Below the pieces are notes generated by a model, which saw only the letters and a list, made by a program, of their open reading frames with translations, searched no databases and was not told the origin of the DNA. From Phyllobacterium bourgognense (lineage in GTDB: Bacteria; Pseudomonadota; Alphaproteobacteria; Rhizobiales; Rhizobiaceae): a stretch of DNA of 64,000 nucleotides. Shown one piece after another: positions 2,855 through 62,923 of the stretch. The first letter of the stretch is position 1. Each line of letters begins with the position of its first letter. The DNA lies in assembly GCF_003337575.1 (NCBI RefSeq), contig NZ_QPJM01000005.1, positions 62,001 through 126,000 on the forward strand, read 5' to 3'. Both the position numbers and the translations under genes were made by a program.

Positions 2855-3997
2855 ATGTCGGTACAGCACTATCTGAAAATGATCGATAATGTTTCGGTTG
2901 CGCAGCGTTGCCATGCGGCGGCTGCGTTGGCCCATATTTACCTGCATTCCGACCTTGATTTCGACGAACGTTGCGCCACAGAGGCTGTATTGACGCTGCT
3001 CCTGGACGATCCTTCGCCGAAAGTGCGGTTGGCGCTTGCCGACGTGTTTTCCACAAGCGCGCATGCCCCGATTCACATCGTCGCCGGTCTTGCCCGCGAT
3101 CAGATAGAGATCGCCACCTATATGCTGGCACGATCCGTCCTTCTCAGCGATGCCGATCTGATCGATTGTGTAGCCGGCGGAAGTGGCGACGCACAGAAAG
3201 TCATAGCGGCAAGGCCCAGGGTATCGATTGCGGTCAGCGCTGCGATCATTGAGATCGGCGAGACCATTGCCGTGCTGGAACTCCTCGCCAATACTCAGGC
3301 GCAGATAGCTGACATCAGCTTCCGCCGCTTAATCGAGCGCCTCGGTCATGTGGCTGAAATTCGTGCGCTCCTTGTCGACAATGAGCGATTGCCTGCCGAT
3401 TGCCGCCATGCCTTGGCAATCTGCATTGCTGAGGCGCTGTGCCGGATGGACATCGTCGTGGCATTGATGGGCGAACGCCGGGCCAGGCGCGTTACGCAGG
3501 AAGCTTGCGTCAAAGCATCGATCAGCCTTGTGGCGGCGACCTCGGTTGAGGAGTATCCGGCATTGATCGAGCACCTGCAGTTGCGCGGTGACCTCACGAC
3601 TGCATTCGTTATCCGGATCGTTGCGTGCGGAAAGATCGATTTCTTCGGTGCGATCCTTGTTATGCTCTCGGGCTATAGCCTGGCGCGCGTGCGAAGCCTT
3701 TTGATCGATGGCCGGGCCACGGCATTGTGTGCATTGTTCAGCGCTGCCGGCCTTCCCGCAAATACGCATCAGCCGTTGCGGGTGGCACTTAACAGTTGGC
3801 ACGGCGTCGCCAATGGCAAACTGTCCATTGGTGCCCGGGAAATCGTGCGCAGAATGATCGAGCACGTCGCACCGGCTACCAATGGTGCTGTTCCTGCCGC
3901 TGCCAATGACGACATGCTGTCGCTGCTCAAGAGGATCTATCTCGAGGCAGTTCGGGAACATGCGCGCGATCATGCAATGGCAATTGCCGCCGCTTAA
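2855..3997 (+). CDS. DUF2336 domain-containing protein
   Basis: A 380-residue, mainly alpha-helical protein with no signal peptide or membrane segment. The N-terminal half, including LTLLLDDPSPKVRLALADVF (about 45-64), looks like the HEAT-like DUF2336 region found in alphaproteobacteria. Function is unknown; some relatives elsewhere are linked to surface or polysaccharide regulation, which I cannot test here. It is monocistronic, divergent from the MaoC gene across about 160 bases. Its TAA stop is also the first base of the left arm of a structured repeat (3997-4139). Confidence 0.8.
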   Translation: MSVQHYLKMIDNVSVAQRCHAAAALAHIYLHSDLDFDERCATEAVLTLLLDDPSPKVRLALADVFSTSAHAPIHIVAGLARDQIEIATYMLARSVLLSDADLIDCVAGGSGDAQKVIAARPRVSIAVSAAIIEIGETIAVLELLANTQAQIADISFRRLIERLGHVAEIRALLVDNERLPADCRHALAICIAEALCRMDIVVALMGERRARRVTQEACVKASISLVAATSVEEYPALIEHLQLRGDLTTAFVIRIVACGKIDFFGAILVMLSGYSLARVRSLLIDGRATALCALFSAAGLPANTHQPLRVALNSWHGVANGKLSIGAREIVRRMIEHVAPATNGAVPAAANDDMLSLLKRIYLEAVREHARDHAMAIAAA

Positions 3998-4139
3998 GAG
4001 CCTGACCGAAAATTCGCCAAGGCGGGCTGCAAATGGCGCTGTTCTGCGCTCCGATGCTCACGTACCCAATGTACGCTCCGCTTCGGTGCTCGGAAATCAC
4101 CATTTTCGCCACGCCCTGACCAATTTTCGGTCAGGCTCT
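3997..4139 (+). repeat. Structured intergenic repeat, copy 1 (subfamily A)
   Basis: A 143-bp element bounded by an 18-bp perfect inverted repeat, left arm 3997-4014 and right arm 4122-4139, beginning AGAGCCTGACC. Inside lies the core shared with five other places in this window: CTGCAAATGG, then a GCTCACGTAC/GTACGCT central dyad, then a CACCATTTTCG tail. It starts on the last base of the stop codon of the preceding gene. It resembles in kind the palindromic intergenic mosaic elements described in rhizobia and Brucella; membership of a named family is not established here. Confidence 0.85.
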
Positions 4140-4420
4140 GGCCCTTCCGCCGAACATTTCATTACAAAATCCATTCAGGCTTTGATCGCATAAATGCGCG
4201 CGCTGCGGGTGAAGTGGCGAAAAATTGCTTTTTTGCCGGGCCCGATTTCACCCGCCCATATAATATTCGCCGGAACTTTCAACAAGTTCAGGGTGTTATA
4301 CGGAATATCTCATCAGAAAAGCGCGGTAACCGTCCGGAATTCCATGGAAAAGCCAATGCTGCCCGCGTGATTTTTCATGATAGTGTACGGCACAATACGC
4401 GTGATTGGGAGGTCTGTATT
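4140..4420. other. Intergenic leader of the branched-chain dehydrogenase operon
   Basis: No gene is supported here. The frame of the E1-alpha gene is open back to 4214, but that extension has no ribosome binding site and no recognisable family sequence. A TATAAT hexamer lies at 4259-4264 and could be a -10 element, but the only TTG-type -35 candidate (4233-4238) is 20 bases away, so the promoter is unproven. Confidence 0.4.
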
Positions 4421-61336: not shown

Positions 61337-62782
61337 ATGCTTCGCAAGACCGATTTCTATATCGATGGAAAGTGGATAGCGCCGGTAGTGGCGAAAGAGC
61401 TTGAGGTGATCAATCCGGCCGACGAGCAGGCATTTGCCGTGATCTCGCTGGGTTCTGCAGCCGATGTCGACAAGGCGGTATCCGCTGCCCGCAAGGCTTT
61501 CACCACATGGAGCGTGACCAGCCGCGAAGAACGTCTCGCATGGCTTGAGCGACTGCTCGCCGTTTATAAATCCCGTATCGCCGATATGGCCAAGGCGATC
61601 TCGTCCGAAATGGGCGCGCCGATCACGATGGCACTGGATGAACAGGCAGCATCCGGAACCGGCCATATCAAGGCTTTCATCCGGTCACTCAAAGAGTTCG
61701 AGTTCGAGCGGCCGCTGAACGGTCACGACACGGTCCGGCTTGCCTATGAGCCGATCGGTGTCTGCGGCCTGATCACGCCGTGGAACTGGCCGATGAACCA
61801 GGTGGTTCTGAAAGTCGTTCCAGCGATTGCCGCAGGTTGCACCGTCATCCTCAAACCCTCGGAGATTGCCCCGATCTCGTCAGTGATCTTCGCAGAGATG
61901 GTCGATGCCTCGGGTCTTCCCGCCGGTGTGTTCAATTTGGTCAATGGTGATGGTCCATCGGTTGGTGCAGCCATGTCAGCTCATCCCGGCATCGACATGA
62001 TGTCGTTCACGGGATCCACCCGCGCCGGTGTTGCCGTGACCAAGGCTGCGGCTGATACGGTCAAGCGTGTATCGCTGGAGCTCGGCGGCAAGTCGCCGAA
62101 CATCGTGTTTGCAGATTCGGATGTAGAAGCTGCAGTCAAGCGCGGCGTCGAGCATGTGTTCAACAATACCGGCCAGTCCTGCAATGCGCCGACGCGCATG
62201 CTGGTGGAGCGCTCGGTCTATAGCAAGGCGACCGAAATCGCTGCTGAGACCGCCAAGGCTACAAAGGTCGGCGATCCATCGCAGGACGGTGACCACATGG
62301 GCCCGCTTGTATCTGAGATGCAGTTCAACAAGGTACAGGGACTGATCGAGCAGGGCATCAAGGAAGGCGCGCGGCTGATTGCTGGCGGTACCGGACGTCC
62401 CGAAGGCTTCAATCGCGGTTACTACGTCCGCCCGACGGTTTTCGCCGACGTCAACAATGACATGGTGATCGCCCGCGAAGAAATCTTCGGACCGGTGTTG
62501 GCGATGATCCCCTTCGACACGGAGGAAGAAGCGGTAGAGATCGCCAATGACACGCCATACGGTCTTGCCGCCTACATCCAGTCGGGTGATCGCGAGCGCA
62601 TCAAGCGCGTGTCGAAGCAGTTGCGTGCTGGCATGGTGCGCATTAATGGTGCCGACCATGCGGCAGACGCTCCGTTTGGCGGCTACAAGCAGTCCGGCAT
62701 CGGGCGGGAAGGCGGTCACTTCGGGATCGAGGATTTTCTTGAAGTAAAGGCAATCAGCGGTTGGGAAGACAACGCTGCCTGA
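61337..62782 (+). CDS. Aldehyde dehydrogenase family protein
   Basis: A 481-residue NAD(P)-dependent aldehyde dehydrogenase. GLITPWNWPMNQ (144-155), FTGSTRAG (224-231), the general base Glu248 in LELGGKSP, and the nucleophile Cys282 in NNTGQSCNAP are all present. AREEIFGPVLAMIPF is typical. It belongs to a broad group oxidising various aldehydes; with guanidino and amine catabolism around, an aminoaldehyde or guanidinobutyraldehyde is possible, but nothing in sequence decides. Monocistronic, between repeats copy 4 and copy 6. Confidence 0.88.
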   Translation: MLRKTDFYIDGKWIAPVVAKELEVINPADEQAFAVISLGSAADVDKAVSAARKAFTTWSVTSREERLAWLERLLAVYKSRIADMAKAISSEMGAPITMALDEQAASGTGHIKAFIRSLKEFEFERPLNGHDTVRLAYEPIGVCGLITPWNWPMNQVVLKVVPAIAAGCTVILKPSEIAPISSVIFAEMVDASGLPAGVFNLVNGDGPSVGAAMSAHPGIDMMSFTGSTRAGVAVTKAAADTVKRVSLELGGKSPNIVFADSDVEAAVKRGVEHVFNNTGQSCNAPTRMLVERSVYSKATEIAAETAKATKVGDPSQDGDHMGPLVSEMQFNKVQGLIEQGIKEGARLIAGGTGRPEGFNRGYYVRPTVFADVNNDMVIAREEIFGPVLAMIPFDTEEEAVEIANDTPYGLAAYIQSGDRERIKRVSKQLRAGMVRINGADHAADAPFGGYKQSGIGREGGHFGIEDFLEVKAISGWEDNAA

Positions 62783-62783
62783 A

Positions 62784-62923
62784 TGTCGGTTTGAAATTCT
62801 ACTGCGACGGTCATCTGACGCGATTTTCTGCGCTTCCGGTGCTCACGTACCTTAAAGTACGCTGCGCTCCGGTTCTCGAAAACCACGCCATCTGACTCAC
62901 CGCAGCGACTTTCAAGACGGACA
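62784..62923 (+). repeat. Structured intergenic repeat, copy 6 (subfamily B)
   Basis: About 140 bp. TGTCGGTTTGAAA at the left pairs imperfectly with TTTCAAGACGGACA at the right; the next segments ACTGCGACGG and CACCGCAG also match. The core GCGCTTCCGGTGCTCACGTA and its mirrored GTACGCTGCGCTCCGGTTCT half are closest to copy 5. It starts 2 bases after the aldehyde dehydrogenase stop. Confidence 0.8.

Follow-up and report, generated by a model that had tools for sequence, protein, structure and literature searches.

A probably mobile hairpin of about 145 bp that often abuts stop codons and tends to be oriented with replication in Phyllobacterium bourgognense

Results

Six copies of one hairpin lie at gene ends

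The 64,000-nucleotide stretch of Phyllobacterium bourgognense contig NZ_QPJM01000005.1 analyzed here (the window) contains six copies of a long hairpin at the 3' ends of genes, which we interpret as a probably mobile, non-coding element whose orientation tends to follow replication. A covariance model trained on the six copies, whose own matches are guaranteed by construction, recovered each of them in the sense direction (117-152 bits, E 1e-31 to 2e-41), together with six weaker antisense matches that are shadows of the same six places; nothing else in the window was matched with an E value of 1 or below. All six copies lie on the plus strand, and each forms a single long imperfect hairpin of ~144 nt. 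The original prediction, an earlier reading of this DNA, had described six copies in one orientation with a hairpin fold and with copy-specific arms that still pair. The model recovered all six copies on the plus strand, and 23 of the 40 predicted pairs show a change of both partners in one or more of the copies, so that both descriptions were borne out.

Copy 1 (3997-4139, plus strand, 148.7 bits) is a hairpin of the form AGAGCC..GGCTCT with arms at 3997-4036 and 4100-4139, and its upstream gene encodes a DUF2336 protein (2855-3997, stop TAA at 3995-3997). Copy 2 (14155-14298, plus strand, 151.5 bits) covers the final 9 bases of an EamA-type transporter gene with stop TGA at 14161-14163, and copy 3 (16394-16536, plus strand, 124.5 bits) overlaps the stop TAG at 16393-16395 of a carboxylase alpha-subunit gene. 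The first base of copy 4 (58926-59067, plus strand, 146.6 bits) is the last base of the TAG at 58924-58926 that ends an AsnC-family regulator gene. Copy 5 (61053-61189, plus strand, 134.2 bits) overlaps the 3' end of a glutamine amidotransferase (trpG-like) gene, the stop TGA of which, at 61073-61075, lies inside the element; the nearest named relative of this gene product is from Phyllobacterium sophorae, with 86% protein identity in a comparison from which very close records may be missing. Copy 6 (62783-62924, plus strand, 117.4 bits) comes right after the stop TGA at 62780-62782 of an aldehyde dehydrogenase gene and, with these ends, is followed on its right side by a TGA at 62925-62927, the automatically placed tips lying 2 bases further in. 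The last base of the stop codon directly precedes model position 1 in copies 1 and 6, and it is element base 1 in copy 4, base 2 in copy 3, base 8 in copy 2 and base 25 in copy 5. Four copies abut the stop and the other two extend into the gene end, which corrects the claim that each copy starts at, within or 2 bases after a stop codon.

The element is abundant in the source genome and unevenly distributed in relatives

Genomes are referred to by G numbers, G000 being the source genome (5.6 Mb, 61 contigs) and the others comparison genomes. The genome scan with the six-copy covariance model, which had been proposed with the prediction, gave 145 rows in G000 at E 0.01 or better, of which 13 are antisense shadows, leaving at least 132 distinct copies; this number is a floor, the best 150 of 772 candidates having been scored. 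Most genome-wide counts below are based on the 111 full-length rows that reached 79 bits or more, omitting the 21 weaker of the 132 copies. G000 and 11 other members of the genus gave 144, 122, 111, 62, 27, 20, 7, 6, 5, 1, 0 and 0 rows, antisense shadows included, with the best 150 candidates per genome scored. With a fast filter and a limit of E 1e-8, the element was matched in at least 17 of 199 genomes from the order and at least 14 of 289 from the class, the own genome being counted in both; the best 15 and 11 candidates per genome, respectively, were scored, so these are floors that say little about copy number. Plasmid matches extend to Sphingobium and Novosphingobium, which belong to a different order. 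Four alphaproteobacterial genomes of 0.9-1.9 Mb (G219, G354, G359 and G364) have 8-11 matches each among the best 11 candidates scored, which raises the possibility that reduced genomes are rich in the element or in a look-alike.

The arms covary and the tip is nearly constant

In the best-pairing alignment the hairpin is 140-154 nt long in 63 of 132 copies, with a typical length of ~145; 15 of the 132 have no sensible value, and some others, copy 4 among them, came out too long. The terminal bases of the element are mostly paired and, judged by eye, the outer arms fall into a few subfamilies that start with GAGCC, GAGACC or GGGTC. In the alignment used for covariation, pair types and tip features, two copies that fall in two retrieved loci are each counted twice, and two others are missing. 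Across the 111 rows of this alignment, which represent 109 distinct copies, 84.3% of the pair cells hold a standard pair, compared with 70.0% when the 3' letters are shuffled among sequences and 23-38% when the partners are slid, and cells changed on both sides number 745 as against 276 after shuffling. The arm covariation is real, with pairing figures that lean toward the hairpin structure because the alignment was fitted to it. Five or six pair types are seen at each of the outermost modelled pairs, and the central pairs are near invariant. The features of the tip are also nearly constant: a T.T mismatch in 101/110 copies, a second T.T in 101/108, a T.C in 106/110 and a bulged C in 105/111. 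The complementary strand would carry purine mismatches and a bulged G in their place, and the two strands would therefore fold differently.

The left end often abuts stop codons

Genes were called with a simple codon-usage finder, which missed three genes in the window. A co-oriented upstream gene is present in 77 of the 111 full-length copies; among these 77, the distance from the stop to the first base of the model is at most 2 bases in 48 copies and falls within -30 to +10 in 69. Counting either end of the element, a facing stop within -30 to +10 is found in 78/111 copies, and 33/111 have none so placed. The prediction that the element is always at gene 3' ends thus holds for the six window copies, all of which abut or overlap a gene end, and not for the genome as a whole. 

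The two ends of the element differ in this respect. Between convergent genes (n = 25), the left end lies exactly at the stop of the co-oriented gene in 17 cases and the right end exactly at the other stop in three, all three of which are left-exact as well (asymmetry p 1.2e-4; 22 versus 8 with wider limits). Among 24 plasmid records that match the element, 12 were checked against the public annotation, and in six of these the extrapolated left end lies at most 2 bases from the stop of a co-oriented gene. These abutting cases come from Shinella (twice), Sphingobium (twice), Novosphingobium and Allorhizobium, that is, from Rhizobiaceae and Sphingomonadaceae. In three further records the right end lies 3-7 bases from a facing stop, two of them apparently representing one Sphingobium site; of the remaining records, one has its right end ~25 bases away from such a stop and two lack a facing stop nearby.

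Sister species have filled and empty sites

The sister species G002 and G008 share ~93-94% DNA identity with G000. Ten sites among these three genomes are filled in one species and empty or reduced to a remnant in another; the two remnants, at C6:98125 (G008) and C6:143210 (G002), look like an internally deleted element. At four of the ten, the lengths agree cleanly with a target duplication of 2-3 bp in a reading by eye for which the ends were chosen to fit: TGA at window copy 6, TA at C6:128372, TTA at a site compared between G002/G008 and G000, and TTA with one changed base per copy at C5:61849. In 12 of the 111 copies the same trinucleotide flanks the element on the left and on the right, compared with a mean of 4.3 and a maximum of 11 in 2000 shuffles.

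The site of copy 2 is empty in G008, where the reading frame, by eye, is ~12 codons longer, which suggests that insertion of copy 2 removed ~12 codons from the gene. The site of copy 6 is empty in G002, and the stop codon is ancestral both there and at C6:128372. At the place of copy 3 (window 16394-16538), the left arm of the element runs into a different palindrome in G008, an arrangement that looks like the insertion of one hairpin into another. At the end of the trpG-like gene the element of G000 and G006 lies 9 bp upstream of its position in G002 and G008, and this gene end is without the element in 8 of 11 other genus genomes and in the P. sophorae record. At C5:22628, G002 has another subfamily at the identical left position. 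The shift at the trpG-like gene and the exchange of subfamilies at C5:22628 indicate that some gene ends have been hit repeatedly. The prediction had offered an inserting element that targets gene ends as one of its two readings, and this reading is supported by the filled and empty sites, the range from 0 to more than 100 rows within the genus, the probable target duplications and the repeated hits at gene ends.

Orientation tends to follow replication

The element switches strand only 8 times along the contigs of G000, where 2000 shuffles gave 51.8 switches on average and never fewer than 34, and 32 of the 111 copies have a gene of opposite direction on their left. GC skew at third codon positions (GC3 skew) is -0.053 in 237 genes co-oriented with the nearest element and -0.137 in 185 others (p 1e-12). 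The sign of the skew agrees with element orientation in 18 of 23 scorable blocks, which together hold 106 of 127 copies; five further blocks had genes on one strand only. Along the 3.95-Mb chromosome contig of G007, the skew is positive in 9/9 samples up to 1.6 Mb and negative in 8/11 beyond, and the elements are on the plus strand in 11/11 cases in the first arm and on the minus strand in 4/6 in the second, so that 15/17 are consistent overall. In G147, a member of another genus of the family with one contig of 6.27 Mb, 10 of 11 elements are on the minus strand, all within 2.4-4.9 Mb, and the skew is negative in 8/10 samples from 2.2 to 4.9 Mb. From the skew and the strand blocks of these three genomes we conclude that the sense strand of the element tends to be the leading strand.

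Transposase candidates in the genus

The Y1_Tnp domain was found in 0 of the 12 genus genomes, whereas 5 of 14 control genomes were positive. The IS5-type domain PF13340 is present in 4 of the 12, with two matches in G000; it is absent from the copy-rich genomes G002, G006 and G008, and its presence does not track copy number. Some members of the insertion sequence (IS) family IS5, with IS427/IS1031-type ends, duplicate TNA or YTAR and start with G-rich ends. The locus L333 of G007 (957-2658) contains an IS5-type transposase between inverted CTAGGGTCAGGAC repeats; these are similar in form to the element end CTA|GGGTCTG, with no convincing sequence match past the tips. An IS5-type parent is not supported, since none of the 10 PF13340 loci, the transposase loci at which ends were compared, gave a convincing end match and copy number was not tracked. 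A short CTAGGGTCAGGACC palindrome was also found in G002.

Discussion

A proposed mobile hairpin inserted at stop codons

We give a probability of roughly 0.6 to the reading that the element is a non-coding mobile hairpin of ~145 bp, resembling the miniature inverted-repeat transposable elements (MITEs), which is inserted at T/A-rich trinucleotides by a transposase acting in trans and enters with an orientation linked to the fork. The transposase would insert the hairpin at TNA, or at TA within YTA, and would duplicate 2-3 bp. Two of the stop codons, TAA and TGA, fit TNA and the third, TAG, includes TA, so that an insertion at a stop codon would leave a stop and be tolerated, and most insertions within genes would be lost by selection. 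Entry would occur mostly one way round relative to the fork, with the sense strand having the sequence of the leading strand and being the lagging-strand template strand. The likely cause of this strand bias is that the machinery would recognize a folded single strand, set apart from its complement by the T.T, T.T and T.C mismatches and the bulged C. On this view the stem would covary because selection across subfamilies has favored elements able to move and fold, and not because of a function as host RNA.

Several observations weigh against this reading. A null model that draws TNA sites at random from the intergenic stretches holding the copies places 21.7 copies (sd 2.3) at the stop, compared with 45 observed among the 54 usable copies of the 77, and TNA targeting combined with purifying selection explains neither this excess nor the asymmetry of left and right ends. 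The probable target duplication is drawn from four sites read by eye and a modest excess of matching trinucleotides, and automatically set ends give AAT/ACT at copy 6, CTA/TAA at C6:128372 and TAA/TTG at C5:61849, which are not identical trinucleotides. Five of the 23 blocks contradict the skew test (on C3, C5, C10, C16 and C30), the C3 block with ten copies. No transposase could be tied to the element, and a staggered duplication, which implies double-strand insertion, and a strand-locked orientation, which implies a single-strand step, do not fit any one textbook mechanism. Stem columns change more slowly than unpaired ones between sister orthologues (66/1877 versus 77/1281, p 0.0012, with pairs that are not independent), which leaves room for some constraint after insertion.

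Possible delivery to stops and possible single-strand transposition

A bolder proposal, which we regard as tentative and rather doubtful, is that recognition acts on the folded single strand of the lagging-strand template and that the hairpin is actively delivered to the stops of genes transcribed with the fork, for example via a single-stranded sense strand exposed where translation ends. The enzyme would lie outside the known REP/IS200 transposases, and the element would be common to Rhizobiales and Sphingomonadales. The placement at stops, the asymmetry of the ends and the strand-marking mismatches together pose a concrete problem, namely how a tiny hairpin picks both a strand and a site.

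A transposon of the HUH/IS200-IS605 type, or one similar to repetitive extragenic palindromic (REP) sequences, would excise the folded strand of the lagging-strand template and re-insert it beside a short target, in which case TNA would be present on the left side only and the apparent duplication would be coincidental. This would suit the replication-linked orientation in three genomes, the near-invariant mismatches that tell the strands apart and the fixing of the left and not the right end at stops (17 versus 3 in 25 convergent pairs). We consider it unlikely, given the lack of a Y1 transposase in all 12 genus genomes and the four filled/empty pairs that allow a reading with a target copy on either side.

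A possible RNA role and selection on the fold

Palindromic repeats at gene ends are often read as RNA regulators, and it is orientation that separates the RNA and mobile-DNA ideas here. In the RNA reading, the element would be kept at stops by host selection because it acts at mRNA 3' ends as a terminator or exonuclease block. Its long covarying stem, the stop within -30 to +10 in 69 of 77 copies, the somewhat slower evolution of stem than of unpaired sites, and the copies at the trpG end, which differ in both arms across species and still pair, are in its favor. A function at transcript ends would orient the element by the gene; since orientation follows the fork, even beside genes on the opposite strand, such a role is unsupported. 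Only two of the 111 copies have a run of at least four T residues within 12 nt past the hairpin, compared with five on the antisense side, and an intrinsic terminator was rejected on this ground. No known RNA family was found with Rfam covariance models, which matched nothing but a tRNA in the window at gathering scores and nothing in the copy 4 region at E up to 1.

Selection on a sense-strand RNA would give an excess of G.U pairs. On the sense strand there are 145 G.U pairs and 215 A.C mismatches, and the missing excess counts against the RNA reading; frequent GT pairing, which is taken as a sign of RNA function in excerpts of PMC3733652, is not seen in this element. Evolution in place was followed in 22 of 29 orthologue pairs that reached 88% identity or more, with species shared among pairs. 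Fifteen single stem changes between sister orthologues kept pairing and 33 broke or restored it, which is not above a chance expectation of ~39% kept, itself taken from an earlier biased count in which pairs came from one orthologue's own fold. Double changes between the sister species numbered 3 in the 22 pairs. Two genus members, G005 and G010, have no match at all. We therefore hold a host-selected RNA element to be quite improbable, and on balance the results favor selection on a spreading element over selection on host RNA. The original prediction had inferred from the compensating arms that the folded form is selected and has a role where transcripts end; the covariation stands, and the orientation, the two U-runs, the G.U counts and the lack of an excess of kept pairs speak against the role.

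Two further explanations of the paired arms

It is very improbable that arm-to-arm templated correction, by quasi-palindrome template switching at forks, keeps the arms complementary, with strand-biased correction producing the fork-linked orientation as a side effect. Replication-linked polarity and three paired arm changes at the trpG site between species (by eye) could be read in this way, but such correction would erase the four tip mismatches and bulges, which 92-96% of copies retain, the sister species rarely show double changes, and two insertions 9 bp apart account better for the trpG difference. Insertion into the loops of pre-existing gene-end stem-loops, with the outer arms being the target's own stem, is scarcely credible: a short CAATT..AATTG dyad at the empty P. 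sophorae trpG site and another G000 hairpin family that sits between GTTGGC and TGCCAAC speak for it, and the common hairpin length of ~144, outer arms that form a few subfamilies rather than host-site sequence, and the empty trpG sites of other relatives, which by eye have no conserved dyad, speak against it.

Relation to known elements

Rhizobiales are known to carry intergenic palindromic elements of roughly 100-150 bp, namely Bru-RS in Brucella and RIME in Rhizobium. Integron attC sites are imperfect hairpins that follow stops in one orientation, with extrahelical bases that mark one strand, and have conserved terminal core sites around a variable center. The element described here was ruled out as an attC site because its core is conserved and its ends are variable, and because the adjoining genes examined are ordinary chromosomal genes and not cassettes. 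YPAL is reportedly placed at gene ends.

RUP, NEMIS, ERIC and YPAL are palindromic bacterial MITEs according to excerpts of Di Nocera 2013 (PMC3733652). The element differs from these in being one continuous hairpin of near-fixed length with near-invariant tip mismatches, a base-exact left end at stops and a replication-linked orientation. The same excerpts of PMC3733652 describe REPs as sequences of 20-40 bp with an unpaired GTAG or CGTC tag, which in both classes are mostly downstream of genes, often <20 bp from their 3' ends; GTAG REP termini frequently provide a TAG stop codon, and CGTC REPs are frequent in alphaproteobacteria, apparently without a dedicated transposase. Judging by the REP placement given there, mobile hairpins at gene ends are not new. 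The likeness to REPs and their RAYT transposases is in the gene-end placement; with ~145 bp, mostly paired ends and Y1 transposase in 0/12 genus genomes, the element was ruled out as a REP/RAYT system. In the parts of these papers that deal with such structures, PMC1590033 gives a general description of stem-loops near stop codons and PMC4666352 treats a different palindromic triplex motif. Searches of an open-access library, at the level of titles and abstracts, turned up no account of the element, nor of a replication-linked orientation of palindromic repeats, with or without base-exact placement at stops. The general kind of element is known, and its strand bias, near-invariant tip and asymmetric stop rule set it apart as a variant. 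The filled and empty sites at the same genes in sister species provide natural controls for effects on expression.

Other palindromes and a possible island in the window

A different hairpin, one of several other palindromic families, lies at window 13063-13192 and has 31-nt perfectly complementary arms (CGTGGTTCGACAAGCTCACC...); at the same place G002 has yet another hairpin, of the CCGTCATCCTCGGGCTTGACC type. A stretch of ~160 bp at window 47098-47260, which starts near TTAGAGCC, is partly complementary by eye and is missing from G002 and G008; on the sequence we read it as a probable other mobile element with similar tips. At window 17475-21449 a tRNA-Leu is followed by three genes with glycosyltransferase and methyltransferase domains; these are the genes missed by the codon-usage finder, which suggests an atypical composition, and they are possibly an island acquired at the tRNA.

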